Positions 4,361-56,258 of a stretch of DNA of 64,000 bases are shown in pieces (position 1 is the first letter of the stretch; every line of letters begins with the position of its first letter). The notes under the pieces were generated by a model, which was given only the letters and a program-made list of their open reading frames with translations, did not search any database and was not told the DNA's origin. A program made the translations under genes and the position numbers. This DNA is from Roseateles puraquae. GTDB lineage: Bacteria; Pseudomonadota; Gammaproteobacteria; Burkholderiales; Burkholderiaceae_C. The stretch is taken from the NCBI RefSeq assembly GCF_002205845.1, contig NZ_NISI01000006.1:1-64000 (forward strand), in the 5' to 3' direction.

Positions 4361-4510
4361 ATGCCGACAAAGCAACTGGACTTCGGTTTCCCGATTCCCG
4401 ACGGTCATCAACTCGTTTTCCGCGCGACGATAACCACCCGAAATGGTCGAGTCCTTCATGCCAAGTGGTTCGGAATCCGGGGTTTCCCGATTCTGATCCG
4501 CACAGCTTGA
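4361..4510 (+). CDS. 49-residue hypothetical protein
   Basis: The start is supported by a full Shine-Dalgarno sequence (GGAAGGAGGT, 4343-4352) about 9 nt before ATG 4361. The stop is TGA at 4508-4510. The product is hydrophobic and basic, with a pattern of strands (LVFRATITTRNGRVLHAKW, then FGIRGFPILI). Short proteins of this style are widespread in Burkholderiales, but I know no function. The long structured leader and operator-like repeats upstream suggest tight control, as for a toxin or stress peptide, which is inference only. Confidence 0.55.
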   Translation: MPTKQLDFGFPIPDGHQLVFRATITTRNGRVLHAKWFGIRGFPILIRTA

Positions 4511-4694
4511 AGACGTAGACCCAAGAAGCCAGCAGCTCCATCTTCACCATGCGCCCGGGCCAAAGCCCACGAACCGAGCGGAGGGCCGTTGGCCCCGCCG
4601 GTCACGCCAAGTGGCGCTAGCGCAACCCGAGATTCTAGTCGCCACCCGGGCAGGATGCGAGATCAACACGAGCGAGCCGACTGAGAAGGTACCG

Positions 4695-4970
4695 ATGACA
4701 CTACATCCCAAGATCACAGCAACGTACCGCTTCACTCGCGACGGCACGTCCCCCGCAGGTTTCGCTAGCCGAAACCGCCCCAGCACCGACGCGCTGTCGG
4801 TGGTAGCCACTTGGGCCTTGGGCGGCGCCGGCCGTTCGTACTCCGTACTGGAAGACGGTGACGAAGCTCTCCTCGTCAAGCTGACTCTGCGAGAGGACGA
4901 CATCGACCAAGCGCGCAACGACATGGAGGTGCTGTGCTCTAAGCACGGCGTGATGCGAGAGGCGGTGTAG
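4695..4970 (+). CDS. 91-residue hypothetical protein
   Basis: The start at ATG 4695 is chosen because GAGAAGGT lies just upstream (4683-4690); an earlier in-frame start at 4611 has no such site. The protein has a strand-rich first half (HPKITATYRFTRDG) and an acidic C-terminal helix (REDDIDQARNDMEVL). I do not recognise a family. It is the last gene before the tRNA-Phe terminator and reads toward it. Confidence 0.5.
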   Translation: MTLHPKITATYRFTRDGTSPAGFASRNRPSTDALSVVATWALGGAGRSYSVLEDGDEALLVKLTLREDDIDQARNDMEVLCSKHGVMREAV

Positions 4971-5083
4971 GGGCTCCGCTTCAACCTGGATGGAGAAGCG
5001 GGAGAGATCCGGCACGGCCTGGTCAAGCCGAAGCGCTCCGGCGATCGCCCGGCGACACACGGACCGCGGTCTTTCGCGGACGC

Positions 5084-5111
5084 AAAAAAGCCCGGCGTGC
5101 CGGGCTCTTTT
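5084..5111. terminator. Bidirectional terminator between tRNA-Phe and the accessory region
   Basis: Stem AGCCCGG (5089-5095) with CCGGGCT (5100-5106). The A-run at 5084-5089 is a U-tract for leftward transcripts, and TCTTTT at 5106-5111 serves rightward ones. It ends the tRNA-Phe transcript. Confidence 0.8.
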
Positions 5112-5149
5112 GGCCCCCAAACACTAAGCAGCGCTTGGGATTTCTGTTC

Positions 5150-5225
5150 TGGTGGCCTGGGGCGGAATCGAACCACCGACACGCGGATTTTCAATCCGCT
5201 GCTCTACCAACTGAGCTACCAGGCC
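5150..5225 (-). tRNA. tRNA-Phe (GAA)
   Basis: A 76-nt cloverleaf on the minus strand. The acceptor stem GGCCTGG pairs with CCAGGCC, the D-arm reads AGCTCAGTTGGTAGAGC, the anticodon loop TTGAAAA gives anticodon GAA, the T-arm has GGTTCGATTCC, and CCA is encoded. Its 3' end faces the accessory region at 1-5080, a common layout for islands inserted at tRNA genes. No duplicate of the tRNA end is seen in the window. Confidence 0.97.
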
Positions 5226-5322
5226 TTGGTTTTCAACTGGGCAGCCCGTCGGCCGCTCAGCGAAGTCCGCGACTATAGCACAGGGTTTGGCGCTGCCAAG
5301 CCTGCGCTGCGGTGCCGCAGGC

Positions 5323-6030: not shown

Positions 6031-8316
6031 TTAGGTCTTGGCGCCTGGCGCACCGGGCTCGGTGGCAGGTGTCAGGTTCGAAAATGATAGCGAAACTTGC
6101 GCGCCGATCACGACGGCGTCGGGCCCTTCACCAAGGGGAGAACCCGCATCGGAAGCGGGATGCAGGTTGCGCAGGGTGATGCGCGCCCCGTGTTCGTCCG
6201 CAATTTTCTTGACGACGGCCAGGCCCAGGCCGGTCCCTTTGGCCTTGGTGGTGACGTAGGGCTCGAAGGCGCGCTTGAGCACTTTCTCGGCAAAGCCGGG
6301 GCCGTTGTCCTTGATGATGAGCCGCACCGAGCGCGGCGTGCCGGTGTCGGTGAGCGTGAGCTGCGAGCGCACGGTGACGCGGCCGTCGGGCCGGTCGTGC
6401 ACCGCGTCGAGCGCGTTCTGCACGAGGTTGTGGATGACCTGGCGCAGCTGGCTTGCATCGCCCTTGATGTGGGGCAGGCTGGGTGCGAGGTCTGCCGCCA
6501 GGCGCCCCTTGTCCTGAGGCTCGGCGTAGAGGCTCAGCACCTCGTGGATGAGGGCGTTGAGGTCCAGCGGCTTGAGCTGGGCGGACGGCAGCCGGGCGTA
6601 GTCGCGGAACTCGTTGACCAGCTGCTTCATGGCCTGCACCTGGTTGACGATGGTGGCCACGGAGCGCACGAGCATGGCCTGGTCGGCGCCTTCGAGCTTG
6701 GCTTCGAGCTTGTGCTGCAGCCGCTCGGCCGAGAGCTGGATGGGCGTGAGCGGGTTCTTGATCTCGTGCGCCAGGCGCCGGGCGACTTCGCTCCAGGCGG
6801 CCGAGCGCTGGGCCGAGACGACCTCGGAGATGTCGTCAAAGACGACCAGCCGCGCGCTCTGCGGCAGCGGTGCGCCGCGCACGAGCAGCGTCAGCGGGTT
6901 CTGCTTGGGGTCGAGCTGCAGCTCGAAGGACTCCTGCCAGAGCTCGCGGTCCATGTCGCGCTCGCCGTCGTTGCTGGCGCTCTGCTCGAAGCGCTGCTCC
7001 AGCGACGCGGCGAATTCGGTGAGGCCGGGCACCTCGGCCAGCGGGCGGCCGATGTAGGCCGACAGCGGCAGGCGCAGGATGCGCGTGGCGCCGGGGTTGA
7101 CCGTCTCCAGCGCCCCGTCGGCGTCGAAGACGAGCACGCCGGCGGTGAGGTTGTCGAGGATGGTCTGCAGGTGGGTGCGGGCGGCGTCGAGCTCGGCCAC
7201 GGTGCGCGAGACCTGGGCGCGGGCGTCGGCGAGCTGGCCGGTCATGTCGGCAAAGGAGCGGGTGAGGCCGCCGAGCTCGTCGCGCGTGGCGAGTGCCGGC
7301 CGCACGGAGAGGTCGCCCTGCGCCACCTGGCGCACGCCGTCGGCCAGCATCAGCAGCGGCCGCGCGAGCTGATTGCCCAGGGTGACGGCCAGCAGCAGCG
7401 CCGCGAACACGGCCAGGATGAGCACCAGCGTGAGCGTGCCGAGGTACATCTGGCGCAGGCCGGTGCGCTCCAGCGAGCGCTGCTGGTACTCGTTGTTGGC
7501 GGCCTGCACGGCGAGCGCATTGCTGAGCATGGTCGGCGGGATGCGCTGGATGACCATCAGGTAGCGCTCGCCCAGGCCCAGGCGCAGCTCGGTGTTGGGC
7601 AGCAGGGCGAGGGTGCGGATCTGGGCGCCGCCCTGCAGGGCCGCGGCTTCGTCTTCCAGGCCTTCGAGCTGGCTGGCGGTGATGCCGCCGCGCGCCCGCG
7701 TGAGCATGCTGCCGCTGGGGCGGTCGGGTGTGAGCTGGCGGGTGTCGCCGCCGCTTTCCATCAGGATCTGGCCATTGCCGCCCACCAGCGCCACGGTGCG
7801 GGCGCCGAGCTTGTCGCGCACCCGCTCCAGCGCAAGCAGCTGGGGCGTGCTGGTCTCGGCGAGTTGGTCGGCGGCGTCGCGGGTCTTGTTGGCGAGGTCG
7901 GAGACCATGGCATCCAGCGTGCCGCGGCCCAGGTTCAGGCCGGCCTCCAGCGCGCTGGCGAGCTTCACGTCGAACCAGGTCTCGATGCTGCGGTTCACGA
8001 ACTGGTAGGACACCGCGTAGATGAGCAGCCCCGGCACCACGCCGACCAGCGCAAAGATGGCTGCGAGCTTGAACAGCAGCCGGCTGCCGAAGCGCCCCTG
8101 GCGCACCCGCACGAACAGGCGCACGGCGGCGGTCAGGATCACTAGCGTCAGCACCACCGCCACGCCGACGTTGACCCAGAACAGCCAGTGGTAGTGCCGC
8201 TCGAAGAAGCCGCGCTCGGAGGTGGTGCCCACCGACAGCAGGAAGCCGAGCACGCCGACCACACCCGTGAGGGTCACCAGCGTGATGACCCAGCCCCAGC
8301 GCGCCACTCGCGTCAT
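6031..8316 (-). CDS. NtrY-like membrane sensor histidine kinase
   Basis: 761 residues from ATG 8316; that ATG overlaps the upstream gene's TGA (ATGA), so the two are translationally coupled. The N-terminus has about four membrane helices in an NtrY-like arrangement, then HAMP (residues about 330-385), PAS (about 400-510), the phosphorylation box RRLAHEIKNPLTP with H517, and a HATPase domain with N, G1 (DNGPGF) and G2 (GTGLGLAVV) boxes. It would phosphorylate the regulator encoded immediately downstream. The signal is unknown. Confidence 0.9.
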   Translation of the reverse strand: MTRVARWGWVITLVTLTGVVGVLGFLLSVGTTSERGFFERHYHWLFWVNVGVAVVLTLVILTAAVRLFVRVRQGRFGSRLLFKLAAIFALVGVVPGLLIYAVSYQFVNRSIETWFDVKLASALEAGLNLGRGTLDAMVSDLANKTRDAADQLAETSTPQLLALERVRDKLGARTVALVGGNGQILMESGGDTRQLTPDRPSGSMLTRARGGITASQLEGLEDEAAALQGGAQIRTLALLPNTELRLGLGERYLMVIQRIPPTMLSNALAVQAANNEYQQRSLERTGLRQMYLGTLTLVLILAVFAALLLAVTLGNQLARPLLMLADGVRQVAQGDLSVRPALATRDELGGLTRSFADMTGQLADARAQVSRTVAELDAARTHLQTILDNLTAGVLVFDADGALETVNPGATRILRLPLSAYIGRPLAEVPGLTEFAASLEQRFEQSASNDGERDMDRELWQESFELQLDPKQNPLTLLVRGAPLPQSARLVVFDDISEVVSAQRSAAWSEVARRLAHEIKNPLTPIQLSAERLQHKLEAKLEGADQAMLVRSVATIVNQVQAMKQLVNEFRDYARLPSAQLKPLDLNALIHEVLSLYAEPQDKGRLAADLAPSLPHIKGDASQLRQVIHNLVQNALDAVHDRPDGRVTVRSQLTLTDTGTPRSVRLIIKDNGPGFAEKVLKRAFEPYVTTKAKGTGLGLAVVKKIADEHGARITLRNLHPASDAGSPLGEGPDAVVIGAQVSLSFSNLTPATEPGAPGAKT

Positions 8317-36187: not shown

Positions 36188-37675
<1,488 letters not shown>

Positions 37676-37676
37676 C

Positions 37677-37706
37677 ATGCTGCTCATGATCGATAAGCAG
37701 CATTGA
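37677..37706 (+). pseudogene. trpG: trpG start codons cut by the island
   Basis: ATG 37677 begins MLLMID, the exact start expected of TrpG (normally continuing NYDSFTYN), then diverges to KQH and a stop at 37704-37706. The glutamine amidotransferase body is absent. The junction is at about 37,695, where the integrase-bearing island begins. The rest of trpG is expected at the other end of the island. Confidence 0.8.
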
Positions 37707-37812
37707 CGTTCCGAGCGGTGCTTTTGTGGTGCTGACGGAAGTTTTTTCCATTTGGCGCCAACGACTTACAGACCTACTGAACGCTGTGGAACGTGCCAGC
37801 ATCCGGCAAAGC

Positions 37813-37839
37813 TGCGGGTAAAGTTGCGGGTAACGCAAC
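37813..37839. promoter_or_regulatory. Direct and inverted repeats upstream of the integrase
   Basis: TGCGGGTAA occurs at 37813-37821 and 37825-37833 (12-bp period). The second copy is embedded in GTTGCG-GGTAA-CGCAAC (37823-37839). These are candidate integrase arm sites or an operator for the integrase gene 15 bp downstream. Confidence 0.4.
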
Positions 37840-37854
37840 GACCGGAGCCAAAAA

Positions 37855-39183
37855 ATGCCGCTCAATGACACGCAGATTCGCAACGCGAAGCCTCGTGATC
37901 GCGCGTACAGAATGACCGATGGCGGCGGACTCCAGCTCGAAGTGCGGCCGACAGGTAACAAGTTCTGGCGCTTCCGCTACCGACTTGATGGTCGCGAAAA
38001 CATGTTTGCGGCCGGCCAGTACGTTCAAGCGCCCAACGGTGAGTCAGCGGCCATGGCGGCGGCGCGAGTGGCGAGTGGTCAATTGACTCTGGCCGAGGCT
38101 CGGCGGCAGCTACTCGACTGGCGCGCAGCTGTAAAGCTTGGCAAGCACCCTGCTGCACAGCGGCACGAGCGGCGCGAGGAGGAAATTCGGCAACAGACCG
38201 AAATCGTCCGGGCTCGGACCAACACGTTCGAGGCAGTGGCGCGGGCTTGGATTGAGGCGAACAAGAAGGGATGGACCGGCAGCTACACCCGTCAGATCGA
38301 GAGGGCGTTCGAGCACCATCTCTATCCAGTCCTGGGCAAAAGACCGATCAAGGACATCACATCGCCTGACCTGACGGGTGCACTAACCAACATGAAGCGG
38401 CTCCGTCCGGCGAAAGCCGGAGCCGATCCCGCCAAGAAGGACTCTTTCAAAGCGCTGCCCGTCCTTCTCAAGCAGTGGACGTCAGCCGTATTCAGACACG
38501 CCATCGCCGAAGGCCTGGCCGAGCAGGATCCCACCTACGCGCTGAAAGGTCGGGTGAAACGCGAGAAGGCGACCAACCACTCGGATCTAGACCCGAAACA
38601 GATTCCAGCGCTGCTTACCGCTTTGGCGCACTACGGAGGCAATCCGAAGACGGTGCATGCGATGCGTCTTCTACTTTTGACCTTTGTACGGCCTGGCGAG
38701 CTGCGCCAAGCATCGTGGAACGAATTTGACTTCGACAAGGCCACCTGGGTGATCCCCGAGGAGCGCATGAAAATGCGGAAAACTCATATGGTCCCCTTGT
38801 CGAAGCAAGCGCTTGCAGAACTCAAGGGCCTACGCCAACTGACGGGCCCAGAAGGACTGCTTTTTCCGAACGAACGGGACCCAAGCCGCGCAATGAGCGC
38901 GACAACTCTAAATCGATGCCTAGAACGCCTTGGCTTCAATGGCGCCGATTCGATGGATTTTTCATCTCACGGTTTCCGGGCCACAGCATCAACGATGCTG
39001 AACGAGTCCGGGAAATTTCGCGAGGACGCTATCGAGCGCCAGCTGGCGCACGTGCCCAAGAACGAAGTTCGCAGCGCCTACAACAGGGCGAAATATTGGG
39101 ACGAACGAGTCCTGATGATGCAAGCATGGGCAGACACGATTGACGCGTTCGTTGGAGCTGCCGACCGTAGAAAGGGAGCCTGA
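37855..39183 (+). CDS. int: Tyrosine-type site-specific integrase (P4/IntS-like)
   Basis: 442 residues, full length. The N-terminal arm-binding DUF4102-like domain (LNDTQIRNAKPRDRAYRMTDGGGLQLEV) is followed by a core-binding domain and a catalytic domain. Catalytic residues seen: R279 (TFVRPGELR), H372 and R375 (SSHGFRATAS), H399 (RQLAHVP) and Y409 (SAYNRA). It sits 150 bp inside the trpG junction and is the obvious agent of the insertion. Most relatives use tRNA genes; use of trpG would be unusual. Confidence 0.93.
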   Translation: MPLNDTQIRNAKPRDRAYRMTDGGGLQLEVRPTGNKFWRFRYRLDGRENMFAAGQYVQAPNGESAAMAAARVASGQLTLAEARRQLLDWRAAVKLGKHPAAQRHERREEEIRQQTEIVRARTNTFEAVARAWIEANKKGWTGSYTRQIERAFEHHLYPVLGKRPIKDITSPDLTGALTNMKRLRPAKAGADPAKKDSFKALPVLLKQWTSAVFRHAIAEGLAEQDPTYALKGRVKREKATNHSDLDPKQIPALLTALAHYGGNPKTVHAMRLLLLTFVRPGELRQASWNEFDFDKATWVIPEERMKMRKTHMVPLSKQALAELKGLRQLTGPEGLLFPNERDPSRAMSATTLNRCLERLGFNGADSMDFSSHGFRATASTMLNESGKFREDAIERQLAHVPKNEVRSAYNRAKYWDERVLMMQAWADTIDAFVGAADRRKGA

Positions 39184-40356: not shown

Positions 40357-40532
40357 CTGACGTTGGCGCCAGGCGCGCAACCACCTCTCCGCGCCGCTCG
40401 GTCTCACGAGTACTGCAGCGTTCTAGGTTGCCCAGTTGGCAGCCTCTCTGACGCTTTAACTCCCACCCACTTCACGCCCATCACCGCCTCGGGTGAGCCC
40501 CTGGCGTGCGCACCTCCGAAGGGAACGTTCAA

Positions 40533-40841
40533 GTGCACAAACCCAATTCTCCCGCCTTCGACACGGGAACCGTACTGGTCACGTCTCAAGCTTTCGGCCT
40601 GTTGCAGCGCGCTGGCGTCGCGCCTGCGGAACTGCTTACGGAGCACCAACGACTGATCCCCGCCAAGGCGATACCTACTGACCTCGCGTTGCGCCTCAAC
40701 GCCATCCAACTGCGTCATCGAGTCACGACGCGATTTCCCGTGCTGACCTTGACGCCACAAATCCAAATCACCGAAGTCTGCGTTGTCACTGAACCCGGCC
40801 ATCACCAAACGCTCATCCGGCTGGCGAACGAATTCCGCTGA
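40533..40841 (+). CDS. Diverged member of the island small-protein family (paralog of 52407-52730)
   Basis: 102 residues from GTG 40533, chosen because GAAGGGA lies about 8 nt upstream; another GTG exists at 40506. The start FDTGTVLVTSQAFGLLQRAGVAPAELL aligns by eye with FKLGALAATPGALAALQQLGVEPMELI of the protein at 52407, and both end in a VVTEPG/VITEAD segment. The family is common on plasmids and integrative elements; function unknown. This copy has lost the acidic GDFGELD part. Confidence 0.55.
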   Translation: MHKPNSPAFDTGTVLVTSQAFGLLQRAGVAPAELLTEHQRLIPAKAIPTDLALRLNAIQLRHRVTTRFPVLTLTPQIQITEVCVVTEPGHHQTLIRLANEFR

Positions 40842-49232: not shown

Positions 49233-51611
49233 TCAGGCATAGAGCTGCGTCTCCAGCTCGGCAACAGCCTTGGCATAGGCCACCTTCCCGCCGAAGGCTT
49301 TGACCAGCTCCATCGGCGCGCCGATGCGGCTGAAAGGGTCGAGCTGAAGAATCTTGATGTCCTCGATGGGCTCCAGGCCGGTGTCGGCGTACTTGTCCAG
49401 CAAGGCCTCCAGCACCTGGCGCGCAGCGCCCTGGTACTTGGCGAAGTAGTTGCGCTTTTTGACCTGGTCCGCGCGCTCCTTGCGGGACAGCGGCGGCTGA
49501 TCGAAGGCGACGTGGCAGATGAGGTCGAAGGGGTCGAGGGGCTTGCCCTGCTTGGCTTCCACTTCCTCGGCCAAGGCTTCCCAGAGCACGCCTTGGTTGG
49601 CGAGCTCTTCGATGATGACCTTCTTCTGCTCGGCGTCGGACCAGCGGCGCAGGAAGGCGTCCAGCGAGCCGAACTGCTTGGCGACGCAACTGCGGGTGTA
49701 GTCGCGCAGGGACTCGGTGATGAGCTTGCCGTCGGCGCCGTAGTACTGCACGCGCTCGGCCACGACGAAGACAGACACATTGCCGACCACGTACTTGACC
49801 CGACCCGTGCCTCCGCCGCCGCCCGTATCTCCGCCGTCGTCGGGTGGCATGCCGTCGCCACCGCTGCCAGGCTGACCGCCTTCGCCTTCGGGTTGATCGG
49901 GCACCTCGTCAGGCGGCACCGGGGGCTCATCACCCTTGGGCTCGTAGACCTGCACCGGGTCCCCATCGAAAGCCGGGTCAGCGAACAACTCGGTGGCCTT
50001 CTTGAAGTCCATGATGGTGAACCAGAACTTGCCGTAGTCCTCGTTGATGCGGGTGCCGCGGCCGATGATCTGCTTGAACTCGGTCATGGACTTGATGTGC
50101 TGATCCAGCACGACGAGCTTGCAGGTTTGGGCATCAACGCCCGTCGTCATCAGCTTGCTGGTGGTGGCGATGACGGGGTAGCGCTCTTCCGGGTTGATGA
50201 AGTTGTCGAGCTCGGCCTTGCCTTCCTGCTCGTCCCCGGTGATGCGCATCACGTACTTGCGGTTCTCCTGGATGCGCTGCGGGTTCAGGTTGACCAGGGC
50301 CTGGCGCATGCGCTCGGCGTGGTCAATGTCGTCGCAGAAGACGATGGTCTTCTGGAAGGGGTCGGTGGCCTTGAGGAAGGCGGTGATCTTCTCGGCCACT
50401 AACTGGGTGCGAGCCTCCAGCACCAGTTGCCGATCCATGTCCTTGAGGTTGTAGATGCGGTCCTCGATGGGCTGCCCGTTCTTGTCCAGCATGCCGGCCG
50501 GCGGGCGCCAGCCTTGCAGATCCTTGTCGAAGTCGATGCGGACGACCTTGTACGGCGCCAGGAAGCCATCGGCGATGCCCTGCTTGAGGCTGTAACTGTA
50601 GACCGGCTCGCCGAAGTAATGGATGCTGGAAACCTCCTTGGTTTCCTTGGGCGTGGCCGTCAAGCCAATGTGGGTGGCGCTGGAGAAGTAGGCCAGGATT
50701 TCGCGCCAAGCGGAATCCTCGGCGGCGCTGCCCCGGTGGCATTCGTCGATGACGACCAGGTCGAAGAAGTCCGGCGAGAACTGCTTGTAGATGTTCTTCT
50801 CTTCCTCGGCGCCAGAGACGGCCTGGTAGAGCGAGAGGTAGATCTCGTAGGACGTGTCGATCTGCCGCTTGGCGATCTTGGTCATCGCCGCGCCGAAAGG
50901 CTTGAAGTCGTTGTTCTTGGTCTGGTCCACCAGGATGTTGCGGTCGGCCAGGAACAGGATGCGCTTCTTCTGACGGCTCTTCCACAGCCGCCAGATGATC
51001 TGGAACGCGGTGTAGGTCTTGCCAGTGCCGGTGGCCATCACCAGCAGTACGCGGTTCTGACCGCGGGCAACTGCCTCCACCGTGCGGTTGATGGCGTTCA
51101 TCTGGTAGTAGCGCGGCATGCGGCCGGTGCCGTCGTCGAAGTACGGCGCTTCGACCTTCTGGCTGGCTTCAGCGTCGAAGCCCTTCCAGGCGCAGTAGCG
51201 CTGCCAGAGTTCAGCGGGGCTCGGGAACTGGTCGAGCGTCAGCTCGGTCTCGGTGAGGGCTGCGTTGCCGGTGCGGTCATGGAACAGAAAGCCGTCGCCG
51301 TTGCTGGAGAACACAAACGGAACGTCCAGCGCCTCGGCGTAGTCGAGCGCCTGCTGCATGCCGTCGCCCACGGTGTGGGTGTTGTCCTTGGCCTCGATGA
51401 CGGCCAAGGGCAGGTTGGGCTGGTGGTACAGGATGAAGTCGGCACGGCGCGACTTGCCCCGGCTGTGCAGCTTCCCGCGGACGATGATCCGACCCTTGGT
51501 GAAGCTGACTTCCTCGCGCACCTGCCGCTGGATGTCCCAGCCGGCGGCCGTGATGGCTGGTGCGATGAACTTGGTACAGATGTCGCGCTCGGACAGCGAT
51601 TTTTTGTTCAT
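49233..51611 (-). CDS. hsdR: Type I restriction enzyme motor/nuclease subunit
   Basis: 792 residues. The N-terminal nuclease domain has D58 (RRADFILYH) and E73-A-K75 (VIEAKD). The SF2 translocase has Walker A GTGKT (195-199), box II DECH (289-292), LTATP, and motif [15 protein letters not shown] Pro/Glu/Gly-rich linker near 560-600 precedes the C-terminal domain. It heads the minus-strand operon hsdR-hsdM-hsdS-nuclease. All functional motifs are intact, so the system is probably active. Confidence 0.94.
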
Positions 51612-52406
51612 GCCGACGTGATCCCCCTGGGCGCATTTTGCATAGGCCGCGCGCTCGCGACGAACCCAACACCGACAACGCCTTACGTTCGTTAGCGACT
51701 AGGTCCCGTCGGTCGGCGAGGACTGCGTGCGCAGAGCGCCGTCCGGTACGGACCTGCGATGCCCGCCAGATGCTTGGACTGGTTGGAAACAGCCACGCGT
51801 CGTAGCCGACTCCCCAGCTGAAGTGCCGAAACACGTTGTGAGCAGACTTTGTTTCCGTGAGCTCCGGCACCTGCGCGATGCGCTTGTCCGCTCCCAGCAA
51901 CCTTGGCGAAGAACCACCCGGCGGCTATTTCCGTTGGTGGCAATGCATCAGCCAGTATCTGAGTACAGACTGGCGCACGAAATGCGCTTGGCAGCAATCC
52001 TGGCATGCGAAACAGTTGGTTTTCCACGATCCAACGGCCAGCACGGCCGCGGTTTTTCGCAATACAGCCGACCGCGTCGCTTGTTTCCGTGGCTCAACCC
52101 GCAAATGTACGGAAAAACATATATAATTCAACAACTTACGGAAATTAGGCTGTCCAATGTTTCCGCGAGTGCCGACCGGATTTTGCTGGACCGCCGCTTG
52201 AGGCGCTGACCATCAGCAGAGCAAGCTCTGTAGTCTGAGTCGGGCAGTGCGCCGGTCATCCGATCCGCGCATCTCACCTCACCCACCTCCCCGAATCACC
52301 GCTCGCTTGACCTCAAGCGAGCTGCCGCATGGGCCAAGCACTTCGCAATGAAGGCGCTGCCTCGTCAGGCCATCCGGGGCACAACAGTACCAATACCGAG
52401 GACCAC
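51612..52406. other. Long intergenic region with AT-rich repeat-bearing segment
   Basis: About 800 bp with no convincing gene; the open frames here lack protein-like features. The segment 52,080-52,150 is unusually AT-rich and contains TACGGAAA at 52108-52115 and 52137-52144, the reverse motif GTTTCCGT at 52083-52090 and again at 51851-51858. A TATAAT at 52122-52127 lies between the direct copies. It is a likely promoter/operator for the rightward cassette starting at 52407 and also the hsdR promoter region. Confidence 0.55.
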
Positions 52407-52730
52407 ATGACCGATTCCACGAAGGCGGTTGAGCCGCCGCATGCACGATTCAAATTGGGCGCCCTGGCCGCAACCCCCGGCGCCCTCGCAGCACTTCAGC
52501 AACTTGGCGTCGAGCCGATGGAGCTGATCGTTCGCCACGTCACCGGTGACTTTGGCGAGCTGGATGCCGAAGACCGAACCAGCAACGAAACAGCTATCGC
52601 TCACGGTCTGCGGGTTTTCTCGGCCTACACGGTGCGCGACCCAAACGACGTGGGAAAGATGCACCGCTTCTGGGTCATCACGGAAGCCGATCGTTCCGTG
52701 ACCACTGTGCTGACGCCTTCGGAGTACTGA
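52407..52730 (+). CDS. Island/plasmid-type small conserved protein
   Basis: 107 residues from ATG 52407, with GAGGA about 5 nt upstream. The pattern is characteristic: FKLGALAATPGALAALQQLGV, then RHVTGDFGELDAEDRTSNETAI, then FWVITEADRSVTTVLTPSEY. Proteins with this pattern are very common on integrative elements and plasmids of Proteobacteria; their role is unknown. It is 2 bp before the recombinase-like gene and likely starts that operon. A diverged paralog is at 40533-40841. Confidence 0.8.
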   Translation: MTDSTKAVEPPHARFKLGALAATPGALAALQQLGVEPMELIVRHVTGDFGELDAEDRTSNETAIAHGLRVFSAYTVRDPNDVGKMHRFWVITEADRSVTTVLTPSEY

Positions 52731-52732
52731 GC

Positions 52733-53626
52733 ATGGATCGCACCAAGTCCCCGCTCGCGGCGCTACCTCGCACGTCCCCCGAAGTTCCCCAGCGAAGGTC
52801 TCATCGCATCACAACGAGAGCGGCCTACAGCCGAGACCTTCACCGTTTCGTTGAGACCTACGGGTTCAAGGTCCCTTGCTCTCCGGAAGACATGCTTACC
52901 TTCATCCGGCTCGTGATCAAGAAGGTCGCCCCTGCAACCGCCTACCGTCGATGCATGGCGATTCAGTCGGCACACGTTGAGTGCGGTGCGCCAAGCCCGA
53001 CGAGCGACCCACGGGTGCGGGAGGCATTGCGCCAGCTCGCAGCGAGGCAGGTGCCCGCGTACCTGCTGGACTCAAAGCCGGCGTCCAAGCGGATGAAAGT
53101 TGCCAAGGTCCAGCCCAAGCAAGCAAGGCCAATCACGCGTGGCATGCTGGAGCGCGTTTTTGATGCGATGGGTACTGGCAGGCGGTCCATCGACCTGCGT
53201 GACAAGGCTCTCATGCTGCTCGGCTTTGCTGGCATGAAGCGTGGCGTGATGTTGGCGCTGGACATTGCAGACTGCCGCTTCACGGCAGACGCACTGTTGA
53301 TCTCCGTCACGGATGTCACTGGTGACGAAACACCGAATGGGCGGCCTGCCAAGGCCCGAACCATCGCGATCCCGCGCACTCGCGGGCCGCTCTGCCCCGT
53401 GACTGCGGTTGAAGCATGGCTTGATCACCTCGACCGCCGTCAGGCTGCCGGTCCTCTGTTCTGCCGATTCGACAGGGGATGTGATCCGATGCCAGACGTG
53501 CGGCTCGATGCCGCGTGGGCCTCTCAGATCGTGAAGCGCCGCATGAAGGACGCCGGCTACGTCGATGTGGACCAGTTCTCCACGGAGTCGCTGCGCCGGG
53601 GCGGCGCGATGGAGAAGGTGCGATGA
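52733..53626 (+). CDS. Shortened tyrosine-recombinase-fold protein, probably inactive
   Basis: 297 residues. The N-terminal SAM-like core-binding domain (YSRDLHRFVETYGFKVPCSPEDMLTFI) and the start of the catalytic domain (RDKALMLLGFAGMKRGVMLALDIAD) are recognisable. Box I keeps an Arg. At the HxxR box it reads TESLRRGG, so the His is replaced, and the protein ends 8 residues later. The second His/Trp and the nucleophilic Tyr are missing. The stop is shared with the next gene start (ATGA), suggesting this short form is maintained, perhaps as a DNA-binding partner. Confidence 0.7.
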   Translation: MDRTKSPLAALPRTSPEVPQRRSHRITTRAAYSRDLHRFVETYGFKVPCSPEDMLTFIRLVIKKVAPATAYRRCMAIQSAHVECGAPSPTSDPRVREALRQLAARQVPAYLLDSKPASKRMKVAKVQPKQARPITRGMLERVFDAMGTGRRSIDLRDKALMLLGFAGMKRGVMLALDIADCRFTADALLISVTDVTGDETPNGRPAKARTIAIPRTRGPLCPVTAVEAWLDHLDRRQAAGPLFCRFDRGCDPMPDVRLDAAWASQIVKRRMKDAGYVDVDQFSTESLRRGGAMEKVR

Positions 53627-54312
53627 CGATCAACCAGGTCTACGTCGCCAGCCTCCGGGCGGAGGGACAGCTGCAGTACGAATCCCTATCCGGCAGTCGC
53701 CGGCATTGGAGCCCTCTGCACCTGCAGCAATCCGTGTTGGATCGCGCGTGCGGTACCCACGCTCTCCTCGTGGCAATCGCTCTTGTGAGCCGCACGCCAC
53801 GTAGCGCCTTCGAGAAGATAAGCGATGCCACTCGCGGACCTTGGCGCAGGTTTTGGGCCATGGCGGTGGAGCACTACTTCGAGGGCACCTCGCCCAAGGA
53901 TCTGGAGACCTTGGCCGCGTGTATCAACGGCGTGACCACTCGCCGGATTCGCATCGGAGGACCGGACCAGCTGCACCGCGTCTGCTTGGCGACCATCGAA
54001 TCCGGCGGCGTGCCGCTACTGGACATCCACGGACCGAACATCGCTCACTGGACGGTGGCGCTTGGTGTTGAAACGCGGATGACCGAGCCCAGTGCCGTGC
54101 TGTGTCTCGACCCTTCCTGTGGCGAGCCGTGGGCCAGCTTCACCAACGCTCGGCTCGACATCAGCAGGCCAGTGCAACCCGCTCGTGGCAAGCCGCTCTT
54201 CAACTATCGCGATACCGACGGCCGCCTGAAGCTTGCTCGCGCGCGGTCGGTGTTGGCGGTACATCCGGCATCCGTGATGCCATCGACTGACTCAGCTCGG
54301 AGGTCTCTATGA
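53623..54312 (+). CDS. C39-like (papain-fold) cysteine peptidase
   Basis: 229 residues from ATG 53623, coupled to the recombinase-like gene by a 4-bp overlap. The catalytic layout of C39-type peptidases is visible: Q35/Q36 in HLQQSVLDRACGTHAL with Cys43, His142 in NIAHWTVALGVE, and Asp163 in CLDPSCGEPW. There is no membrane or ABC domain as in bacteriocin transporters, and no signal peptide. The substrate is unknown; neighbouring small proteins are candidates. Assignment is by motif order only. Confidence 0.6.
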   Translation: MTINQVYVASLRAEGQLQYESLSGSRRHWSPLHLQQSVLDRACGTHALLVAIALVSRTPRSAFEKISDATRGPWRRFWAMAVEHYFEGTSPKDLETLAACINGVTTRRIRIGGPDQLHRVCLATIESGGVPLLDIHGPNIAHWTVALGVETRMTEPSAVLCLDPSCGEPWASFTNARLDISRPVQPARGKPLFNYRDTDGRLKLARARSVLAVHPASVMPSTDSARRSL

Positions 54313-54379
54313 ACCAAAGCGCACCTGACAGATACAGATGTGTTTGGTACCCTTTATGTCTTCGTCATCAGGGAGGCAT

Positions 54380-54607
54380 ATGGCAGAGCACAGCGTCAAG
54401 GTCATGGCGCCTGAGCTGGAGGTCGGCAAGGCCGATTTCGAGTTCAAGGTGTTCCAAAACTCAAAGCTGCTCGGCACGCTGTGCGTGTCGCACGGTGCGC
54501 CGAGCTGGCGCAAGCGCGGCTGCAAGAAGAAGTCGATCACCTGGGAGCAGTTGGCCGCTGCGTTCACCAAGGAGCCGCGCAAGCAGCGCAAGAACGCTGA
54601 CGAGTAG
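54380..54607 (+). CDS. 75-residue hypothetical protein
   Basis: Start ATG 54380 is supported by AGGGAGG just upstream (54370-54376). Basic and charged, with a strand pair (KADFEFKVFQNSKLLGTLCVSHGA) and a basic helix (KRGCKKKSITWEQLAAAF). It resembles a widespread class of small proteins with the pattern VGxADxxFxVxxxGxxLGTLxVSxGxxxW, of unknown role. It ends 9 bp before the next gene. Confidence 0.65.
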   Translation: MAEHSVKVMAPELEVGKADFEFKVFQNSKLLGTLCVSHGAPSWRKRGCKKKSITWEQLAAAFTKEPRKQRKNADE

Positions 54608-54616
54608 GGGGCCGCC

Positions 54617-55213
54617 ATGATGCCGGTCGTCTTCTTCGAGCTGTATATACCCGGCTCGATGGTGCCCTGTCAGGATCCTGGGTTCGTCGCCGTCAAGGTG
54701 ACGCAGAAGTTGCTGACGAGGCTCAGGGCCGTCAACGCGCTTATCAAGCGGCACAAGCTGAGCCAGGTCAGCATCGAATCACACGGCCTGCCCGTGGAGG
54801 TCTTTGTGATTGGGGTTGCAGAGCCTCGGGTCGAAATCGACCTCATCGCTGACATGGTGGTGCTCCGGGTCTCGGGTAGGCGCTTCGACGAAAACCAAGA
54901 GGCTGGCCGGATCGAGCCATTGGCTGAGTCGTGGGTGATCGGTCTCGACCAGTTGGAGCACTTCCGACAGCAAGGGCTACCAGTCACGCTGCACCAGTGG
55001 GAAGATTCCACCGAACTGGAAGAAAGCTGGACCCTGGAGCCCTTCGGTCATCGAGTCTTCGATTGGCTGAAGCGACAGGGGGCGTACGAGCGGTACCTAA
55101 AGCTCGAATGGTTTGACCATGAGCACGCTGCGCTGCTTGAAGAGTTCGACAAGCCGGCAGCGAGCCGCGAGGAGCGCCGTCGACGTCGAGCTGAAGCGGG
55201 GTCTACCAGCTAG
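54617..55213 (+). CDS. Hypothetical protein
   Basis: 198 residues, probably cotranscribed with the 75-residue gene. A strand-rich first half (VVFFELYIPG, VEVFVIGVAEPRVEIDLIADMVVLRVSG) is followed by a helical second half and a basic Arg-rich tail (REERRRRRAEAG). I recognise no family. Its end overlaps the end of the convergent XRE gene by 4 bp. Confidence 0.6.
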   Translation: MMPVVFFELYIPGSMVPCQDPGFVAVKVTQKLLTRLRAVNALIKRHKLSQVSIESHGLPVEVFVIGVAEPRVEIDLIADMVVLRVSGRRFDENQEAGRIEPLAESWVIGLDQLEHFRQQGLPVTLHQWEDSTELEESWTLEPFGHRVFDWLKRQGAYERYLKLEWFDHEHAALLEEFDKPAASREERRRRRAEAGSTS

Positions 55214-55563
55214 CGGCGGCGTTTCTCGTTGGCCTTGTCTTTCGGTCGGCGGGTCGTCGCGGCGTACGGGCGAGCCGTCCGCGGTGCGCGCGTGAGCGTG
55301 GGGTCATAGCCGCGCTCTTCGGCAAGGCGGGGATTGAGCAACTCGTGTGCCGGCAAACCGATGGCTTCGGCCAGCCGTTCGACGTTGTCGATGCTGATGT
55401 TCCTCGTGCCGCGCTCCAGCGTGCCGAGGAAGGCCCTGTCCACGCCGGCTGCATGCGCCAAGGCCTCCTGAGAGAGGCCGCAGTCGATCCTCGCCATCCG
55501 AACGTTCTTGGCAAATATCAGTCGCAGAGGCTGACCCGTCAGGTCACTCGGTGCCTTTCTCAT
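55210..55563 (-). CDS. XRE/Cro-type helix-turn-helix regulator
   Basis: 117 residues. The HTH spans about residues 14-75, with SQEALAHAAGVDRAFLGTLERGTRNIS and a following helix NVERLAEAIGLPAHELL. The C-terminal tail is basic and low in complexity. It converges on the 198-residue gene and probably controls neighbouring island genes. No operator could be assigned. Confidence 0.88.
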   Translation of the reverse strand: MRKAPSDLTGQPLRLIFAKNVRMARIDCGLSQEALAHAAGVDRAFLGTLERGTRNISIDNVERLAEAIGLPAHELLNPRLAEERGYDPTLTRAPRTARPYAATTRRPKDKANEKRRR

Positions 55564-55685
55564 CTACCGCCATCGTCAAGTGACGAGGCGTTTGAATCCA
55601 CGGTGTTTGAAGCCCTTTAGCGCGGCTGGCCTGACCCCATAAGGCCGCTGCCCATCTTTGCAGTACCAACGTTCTAGGAGTTCAC

Positions 55686-56258
55686 ATGTTCAAGTCAGAA
55701 ATCAAGAGTCTCTTCTTTGTCATGCTGCTGGCCACCGCCTCCATGGCCTCTGCTGCCCCTGCCAACTGCACAGAGTTCGGCGGCCGAAAGTTCTGCACCC
55801 AAGGTGGGAACGCGCCGCTGAAGGTATTCGGCATGTGTTGGAAGGAGCGCAGCGCGGCCGCTCAGCGCGGCGATGGCGCCAAGCTGGTGCCCAACTGGCT
55901 CGAACCGGCGACAGAGGCGACGGCATGCATGGCTGCCAAGGGCACAGAGGAATCACCTGTGAAGCAAAGCGCCGGAAAGGATTTCTGCACCGAGCAAGGC
56001 GACACATACATGCAAGGCATGCTGCGCCTTTGCAAAGCGGGCGCCACCCGAGACTTGTATGTCGTGCAAGAGGACTACTGCAGGATGGTCGCAACAACCT
56101 TCGTCGAGGTCGGCATGCTCAAGCCAGGCGGCGGGTCTGACCCCATCAACCTGCCGCTCATCGCTCCGTGTCTCAGGGCCCAAGGCTGGTCGATTTCTGC
56201 TGTCGAACCGAAAGGGCCGAAGCCGAACCAGCGCGTTGGAGCGACCGGAAGCCTTTAA
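55686..56258 (+). CDS. Exported cysteine-containing hypothetical protein
   Basis: 190 residues with a clear signal peptide (SLFFVMLLATASMASAA). Start ATG 55686 follows AGGAG (55676-55680). The mature part has at least eight cysteines (for example NCTEF, KFCTQ, GMCWK, DFCTEQ, RLCKAG, DYCRM, APCLR), suggesting disulfide bonding in the periplasm. No family is recognised. Divergent from the XRE gene. Confidence 0.7.
   Translation: MFKSEIKSLFFVMLLATASMASAAPANCTEFGGRKFCTQGGNAPLKVFGMCWKERSAAAQRGDGAKLVPNWLEPATEATACMAAKGTEESPVKQSAGKDFCTEQGDTYMQGMLRLCKAGATRDLYVVQEDYCRMVATTFVEVGMLKPGGGSDPINLPLIAPCLRAQGWSISAVEPKGPKPNQRVGATGSL

Follow-up and report, generated by a model that had tools for sequence, protein, structure and literature searches.

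A truncated tyrosine recombinase lacking most of its catalytic residues is conserved in an operon with a C39-like cysteine peptidase homologue

Regulation by a peptidase that acts on a DNA-binding protein is known from the mobile element ICEBs1, on which ImmA cleaves ImmR (according to the available part of PMC8960796), and regulation by a tyrosine recombinase is known from Pseudomonas aeruginosa, where deletion of xerC, but not a catalytic mutation, raises pyocins without RecA (available part of PMC9431673). The C39-like cysteine peptidases form a further point of reference, and the available part of a review of papain-like peptidases treats PF11814, PF03412 and PF13529 together (PMC10318531). 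Here we describe a locus in a 64,000-nucleotide stretch of Roseateles puraquae DNA (henceforth the window) in which a catalytically dead, C-terminally truncated tyrosine recombinase (P0001, 297 aa, 52733..53626, plus strand) and a C39/HcuA-like cysteine peptidase homologue (P0005, 229 aa, 53623..54312, plus strand) are encoded by overlapping genes, the stop codon of the first and the start codon of the second sharing the letters ATGA at 53623-53626. These are the two ORFs, the span (52733-54312) and the shared stop and start that an earlier note on this DNA had given. Both proteins belong to known superfamilies. The note knew of no described system with this pairing, and we likewise found no description, in open-access full texts, of the pairing or of inactive tyrosine recombinases as regulators within such a module.

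The assignment of P0001 rests on ORF analysis, alignment, a tree and dN/dS. In an alignment of 45 recombinase ORFs, taken from retrieved loci only (several genome-profile matches have no locus in it), all 39 full-length relatives retain R-I, K, His-II, Arg-II, His or Trp at box III, and Tyr; the 39, like the tree below, leave out L021 (whose ORF runs off the locus), L084_2 (incomplete, at the edge of its locus) and L103_7116 (frameshifted, genome G1014). The window recombinase has Lys at R-I, no Lys at K-beta and Glu at His-II (TESLRR), and its ORF stops just past box II, nine residues beyond the retained Arg-II, so that box III and the Tyr are missing. In the truncated recombinase of genome G982, Ser replaces R-I and Gln replaces His-II, and the protein ends 12 residues past Arg-II. 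Of the residue set of active enzymes (R-I, K, H-II, R-II, H/W-III, Y), Arg-II is the only one left in the window protein, in that of G982 and in a close copy from genome G503. The earlier note, which had the protein ending at an HxxR box with its His replaced and no Tyr, thus understated a loss that also takes in R-I, K-beta and box III. Compared with full-length relatives, the three truncated members have a linker that is about 10 to 18 residues longer.

Homology of P0001 to recombinases is apparent from its alignment with full-length relatives over the core-binding domain and the beginning of the catalytic domain; relatives found in 200 family genomes are up to 39% identical, apart from the G503 copy. 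PHROGs 'integrase' is matched by P0001 at 7.7e-5 and by the G982 member at 4.8e-13. P0001 matched no family in Pfam or NCBIfam, and the G982 member matches Pfam Phage_integrase at 9e-5, under the cut-off. A search of the PDB with a recombinase profile returned XerD at 0.006, adjacent to an RNA polymerase subunit at 0.007, and no recombinase was among the matches of P0001 alone.

The copy in G503 (Pelomonas sp. V22) is also 297 aa long, is 81% identical, ends at the same residue and has the same ATGA overlap with a peptidase gene. Between the two, dN/dS (Nei-Gojobori) is 0.09 at a dS of 1.18, with 0.047 in the core-binding domain, 0.074 in residues 132-297 and 0.46 in the N-terminal tail; the lowest value, 0.008, is that of residues 51-106. 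The same comparison gives 0.24 for a small protein encoded upstream (ATPGAL, see below), 0.20 for the peptidase and 0.11 for an Xre-type regulator. We rejected freezing at the DNA level as the cause of the strong conservation, since the synonymous rate in residues 51-106 is high (dS 0.96). The third truncated recombinase, that of G982, is 36% identical and likewise breaks off after box II; each of the three shares an operon with a peptidase-family gene. Against a profile built from the three truncated members themselves, these score 482-587 bits in 399 family genomes, followed by the next match at 120 bits. In the 42-row recombinase tree they group together (support 100/99), with a sister group that is unsure because their stem is long. 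Scans of IMG/VR with a few short peptide patterns returned no relatives of the recombinase, and a genome-contig scan with two short patterns only, which gives no measure of rarity, returned the Pelomonas locus alone. Judged by these comparisons, the recombinase lacks the residues needed for catalysis yet appears to be held under strong selection, tightest in the core-binding, DNA-gripping domain.

Alternatively, the gene might be an integrase pseudogene left next to an unrelated gene, or the product of a sequencing frameshift. The absence of every catalytic residue except Arg-II could be read in this way, and a genuinely frameshifted recombinase does exist in the family: the second recombinase of G1014 (7116-8104) is frameshifted before box II and has its C-terminus in the next frame. 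We nevertheless reject this reading as exceedingly improbable. The same 297-aa protein with an identical end recurs in a second genome at the dN/dS and dS given above, a diverged truncated member exists in G982 and, unlike in G1014, the missing C-terminus is in no other frame, be it in all frames of 53501-55300 in the window (best E 0.04, 4 bits) or near any of the three truncated recombinases. The frameshift that the earlier note had named as its own refutation is contradicted by the second genome. The G1014 locus (L103) carries two related recombinase genes close by, at 4492-5286 and 7116-8104, and neither the peptidase nor the ATPGAL profile matched in it.

The peptidase assignment rests on alignment and profile comparison. 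By tblastn, members of the peptidase family reach HcuA, encoded on a P. aeruginosa plasmid, and a Prevotella 'C39 family peptidase' (E 3e-3 to 1e-9), and the G982 peptidase also reaches a P. luteola protein (9e-12). When seven members were compared by hhalign with HcuA, the Prevotella C39 protein and the P. luteola protein, the probability was 99.8% (E 1.1e-28) over 178 columns, and the catalytic residues lined up; five members from the other main peptidase branch gave 95.5% and an unrelated control 0.35%. Q36, C43, H142 and D163, the Gln/Cys43/His142/Asp163 order already read by the earlier note, are invariant in all 18 members of the peptidase alignment (A3). That alignment and the peptidase tree exclude the G562 relative, which is without the catalytic His; this ORF (L023, 9410-10093) adjoins a convergent Xre gene. 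P0005 is a stand-alone ORF of 229 aa with no transporter domain, and the note, too, had seen no secretion domain in it; no match to PF03412 was found in it, and it is thus distinct from C39 proper fused to an ABC exporter.

The tie to the named C39 families is real but thin, because the Pfam matches are below cut-off and some are to unrelated families. P0005 itself matched no family in Pfam or NCBIfam, and the Prevotella protein and HcuA match PF13529 at 1.6e-3 and PF11814 at 0.018, respectively, both below cut-off. Taken as single sequences, the 18 members give weak and mixed Pfam matches: C39_2 (1.6e-3, Prevotella only), DUF1198 (9e-3), DUF6001 (0.04), ACTMAP-like (0.06), Complex1_30kDa (0.07), DUF3335 (0.12) and phytochelatin synthase (0.22). 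Among PDB sequences, P0005 alone finds O-methyltransferases at 0.02, and the profile finds ribosomal bL20 at 0.2 and phytochelatin synthase at 0.24. An AlphaFold model from two sequences has a mean pLDDT of 35. These mixed matches, together with the annotation of HcuA as a hydrophobic compound transporter, would suit a different papain-fold enzyme (an acyltransferase, a phytochelatin-synthase-like enzyme or an HcuA-like protein with a different reaction) or a protein more distant than C39. We hold this to be unlikely, given that the Gln/Cys/His/Asp set is invariant and aligns with that of the annotated Prevotella C39 peptidase. A literature search returned no relevant paper on HcuA. By profile comparison, then, the protein is a C39-like homologue that keeps the residue set, and peptidase activity is predicted for it.

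Matches to the peptidase occur in 16 of 399 genomes of the family, two of them weak and with internal stops, which leaves 14, of which three have the dead recombinase. In the order there are matches in five of 399 genomes (one match dropped), in the class in one of 369 (the source's own, with a five-row profile) and in the genus in one of 20 (again the source's own); the family, order, class and genus draws overlap. Dropped from all counts were the matches in G308, G466 and G583 and the second in G428 (E 5e-4 to 9e-4; short, chance-like or with internal stops). The 19 peptidase loci counted include that of Prevotella and exclude those of HcuA and P. luteola.

Only three of the 19 loci contain the dead recombinase, and an exclusive pair is therefore rejected. 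By contrast, 16 of the 19 have ATPGAL on the same strand no more than 1.6 kb upstream of the peptidase gene (13 directly, with a gap of at most 125 bp, two with the recombinase between and one with other genes between), the remainder being G562, Prevotella and G1059, whose contig leaves only about 200 bp of upstream sequence. In 13 of 19, a convergent Xre gene is present at a distance of at most 1.2 kb; the six loci without one in that range include G1051, G995 and G004, in which the ATPGAL and peptidase genes are side by side. Some of the loci scored by these neighbourhood profiles also supplied the profiles' sequences, and the G985 row of the ATPGAL seed is mistranslated. Negative ATPGAL gaps stem partly from longest-ORF starts, and the gap between recombinase and peptidase in the window is -112 if counted from an upstream in-frame GTG and -4 from the ATG. 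A further upstream family (UPAAA, a label coined here) occurs in nine peptidase loci and a different downstream family (GLYC, also coined here) in three. Among ORFs near individual peptidase genes, that at 2100-2636 of L062, after the peptidase, begins with RRQ and weakly matches an FtsZ C-terminal domain (E 4.5e-4, under the cut-off); an ORF at 923-1525 of L012 resembles it by eye; and in G982 a protein-kinase-like ORF (L058, 695-1438; Pkinase E 1.7e-3, under the cut-off) overlaps the end of the peptidase gene.

These neighbourhoods indicate that the peptidase belongs to a wider module to which the recombinase was added in one branch. In the peptidase tree, the three recombinase-linked peptidases group at only 74/90. 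Since 16 of 19 loci are without the recombinase, it is not the peptidase's general target. The two genes do share an operon elsewhere, in G503 and G982, and the ATGA overlap holds in the window and G503. In G982, however, the recombinase stop overlaps the start of ATPGAL instead, and overlaps run through that whole operon; coupling therefore does not mark recombinase and peptidase as one product, and this part of the earlier proposal finds no support in that form. Searches for the peptidase found none in phage records and none in IMG/VR for three peptidase queries, with a few short peptide patterns each.

In the window, ATPGAL (107 aa, 52407..52730, plus strand; identified by profile and model, and labelled here after its motif) lies 2 bp upstream of the recombinase gene. 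It is the first gene of the operon in the window and G503, and the recombinase is first in G982. Downstream of the peptidase follow a 75-aa protein (54380..54607, plus strand) and a 198-aa protein (54617..55213, plus strand), each in the same place in G503 at 37% identity (dN/dS 0.70 and 0.43, respectively), and the convergent Xre-type HTH regulator (55210..55563, minus strand; 79% identical in G503). Rfam gave no match over 51500-55700. ATPGAL proteins share a conserved C-terminal Pro-x-x-Tyr end, are annotated in some records as 'type I restriction endonuclease subunit M', and occur in 167 plasmid records and 277 stretches of viral contigs. The same island encodes, at 40506-40841 of the window, another ATPGAL-like protein (111 aa, profile E 2.5e-7), which is diverged. 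We inspected 88 viral ATPGAL loci (L107-L115 and L118-L196; a few share one contig, and the flanks reach 3 to 4 kb unless the contig is shorter) and found the peptidase profile in none, which weakens ATPGAL as a peptidase-specific partner; a recombinase-profile ORF is present in two (L150 and L152).

The ATPGAL structure predicted from 63 of the 88 viral loci has a pLDDT of 92. In the list of VIA fold matches, RelE, HigB, YoeB and ParE fill most of the top rows at Z of at most 5.2, the top row being another protein; Foldseek found nothing in the PDB at E of at most 0.001 and two matches at that threshold in a viral structure library. The model is thus weakly RelE/HigB-like, which we treat as a lead. 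Such a fold would suit a defence or addiction module in which the peptidase would be an intracellular effector that harms cell or phage when triggered, the Xre protein and the dead recombinase would silence it, and ATPGAL would be its cofactor or partner. Restriction-modification genes near the module in the window (and, by eye and without a family scan, in G503, G982 and G1078) point the same way, as do the patchy distribution of the peptidase and its varying partners. The low Z values of the fold matches count against this, as does the fact that PADLOC models gave no match for P0001, P0002 or P0005 and that a literature search for a C39-like effector in phage defence returned none; we regard a defence role as rather unlikely, if worth keeping in sight.

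Upstream of the operon, an element around TATAATTCAA is common to all three recombinase operons despite their different first genes. In the window, the promoter-like element TATAATTCAAN3CTTACG (52122..52140, plus strand), a pattern picked after seeing the three loci, lies inside a block (52083-52152) that matches the G982 operon at 45 of 70 bases, with a maximum of 38 among 60 shuffled pairs. The window and G503 agree less well (42 of 70 bases, against a shuffled maximum of 40), and for G503 and G982 the best-matching block (41, shuffled maximum 38) is located elsewhere than the window-G982 block. Of 196 loci, 10 contain the short promoter pattern, and each of these is an overlapping copy of one of the three recombinase loci. 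Five TTTCCGYGA-like sites (at most one mismatch) at 51852..52168, with no strand assigned, form a candidate operator, the motif having been chosen post hoc. Per 410-bp upstream region there are five in the window, three in G503 and one in G982, with about 0.1 to 0.3 expected by chance in each; the single G982 site is no more than chance could give. The motif is absent from 11 of 12 control operons, which are mostly of lower GC, and present once in the other, and over the whole window it occurs 22 times against 24.5 expected. These sites could be those of the Xre regulator, because its constraint is close to that of the recombinase (dN/dS 0.11 versus 0.09). A perfect 10-bp inverted repeat (52301-52322) in the leader before ATPGAL is the only one in the promoter scan of the window, and none was reported upstream in G503 or G982.

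The operon lies on a low-GC integrative island of about 27 kb (37855 to about 65000 in window coordinates), GC being about 0.59-0.65 from 38 to about 66 kb and mostly 0.66-0.74 on both sides. The island encodes a full-length integrase with an arm-binding domain (37855-39180), which we take to be P4-type, a DUF927 protein, a G2P-type replication protein, a type I restriction system and a PglX/type IIG-like methyltransferase. That the island has its own integrase argues against the dead recombinase being needed to move it. The latter could instead be an accessory that, bound to att-like or arm sites, directs or inhibits a recombinase of the island, the peptidase being merely co-transcribed. In keeping with this, the protein is a tyrosine recombinase homologue, the island has an integrase, and in G480 and G1078 there are related full-length recombinases in the same region, at about 7 kb from the peptidase. 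We find the accessory role improbable, however: searched against its own genome, the dead recombinase does not match the island integrase at E 0.001, the conserved DNA block sits upstream of the recombinase operon, and no repeat of at least 14 bases of 37601-37900 was found beyond 45 kb that could mark the island ends.

We tentatively propose, as a possibility still well short of probable, that the locus is a control module of the integrative island, combining a non-cutting DNA-binding recombinase with a cytosolic cysteine peptidase, perhaps as an ImmR/ImmA-like switch. A regulatory module is favoured because of the selection on the DNA-binding half of the recombinase and because of the XerC and ImmA precedents. 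The truncated recombinase would most likely occupy sites in the conserved promoter region that precedes the operon it belongs to, and the peptidase would be made from the recombinase's transcript via the overlapping stop and start codons. The peptidase, if active, would most likely cut or inactivate a DNA-bound regulator of the island, either the neighbouring Xre protein or the dead recombinase, in the manner of the metallopeptidase ImmA acting on ImmR; we infer the single transcript, the DNA binding, the peptidase activity and its target, along with any role of ATPGAL in the module. A more specific version, in which the recombinase has turned into a dedicated non-cutting repressor on a conserved operator and the co-translated papain-like peptidase serves as its anti-repressor in a mobile-element switch, is distinctly unlikely.

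The locus would be an instance of a tyrosine recombinase that evolution has deprived of catalysis and nevertheless preserved, most of all in its DNA-binding domain, within an operon that also encodes a cysteine peptidase. Should the peptidase act on a DNA-bound regulator, a cysteine-peptidase counterpart of the ICEBs1 metallopeptidase switch would exist on integrative islands. Either way, proteobacterial genomes contain a C39-like family that has no Pfam label and is associated with ATPGAL and Xre genes.

How, then, does the module compare with known systems? With tyrosine recombinases (XerD/Cre-type, Phage_integrase), the truncated proteins share the core-binding and early catalytic domains and Arg-II, but differ by lacking R-I, K-beta, His-II, box III and Tyr, by ending 9 to 12 residues past Arg-II and by their longer linker. 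P0005 has the Gln, Cys, His, Asp-Pro, Asn order of C39-like peptidases (PF13529, PF11814/DUF3335) and Pseudomonas HcuA, and differs in matching no Pfam family, in standing alone without a transporter domain and in lying beside ATPGAL and Xre genes. Like the role proposed for the dead recombinase, that of the tyrosine recombinase XerC in pyocin control is regulatory and independent of recombination, but XerC is a full, active recombinase, and the available part of PMC9431673 mentions no peptidase partner. With ImmR/ImmA of ICEBs1, the module shares its place on a mobile element and an HTH regulator gene near a peptidase gene, and the two may work alike; ImmA is a metallopeptidase, whereas the peptidase here is C39-like, its gene is convergent with that of the Xre regulator, and a dead recombinase is added.
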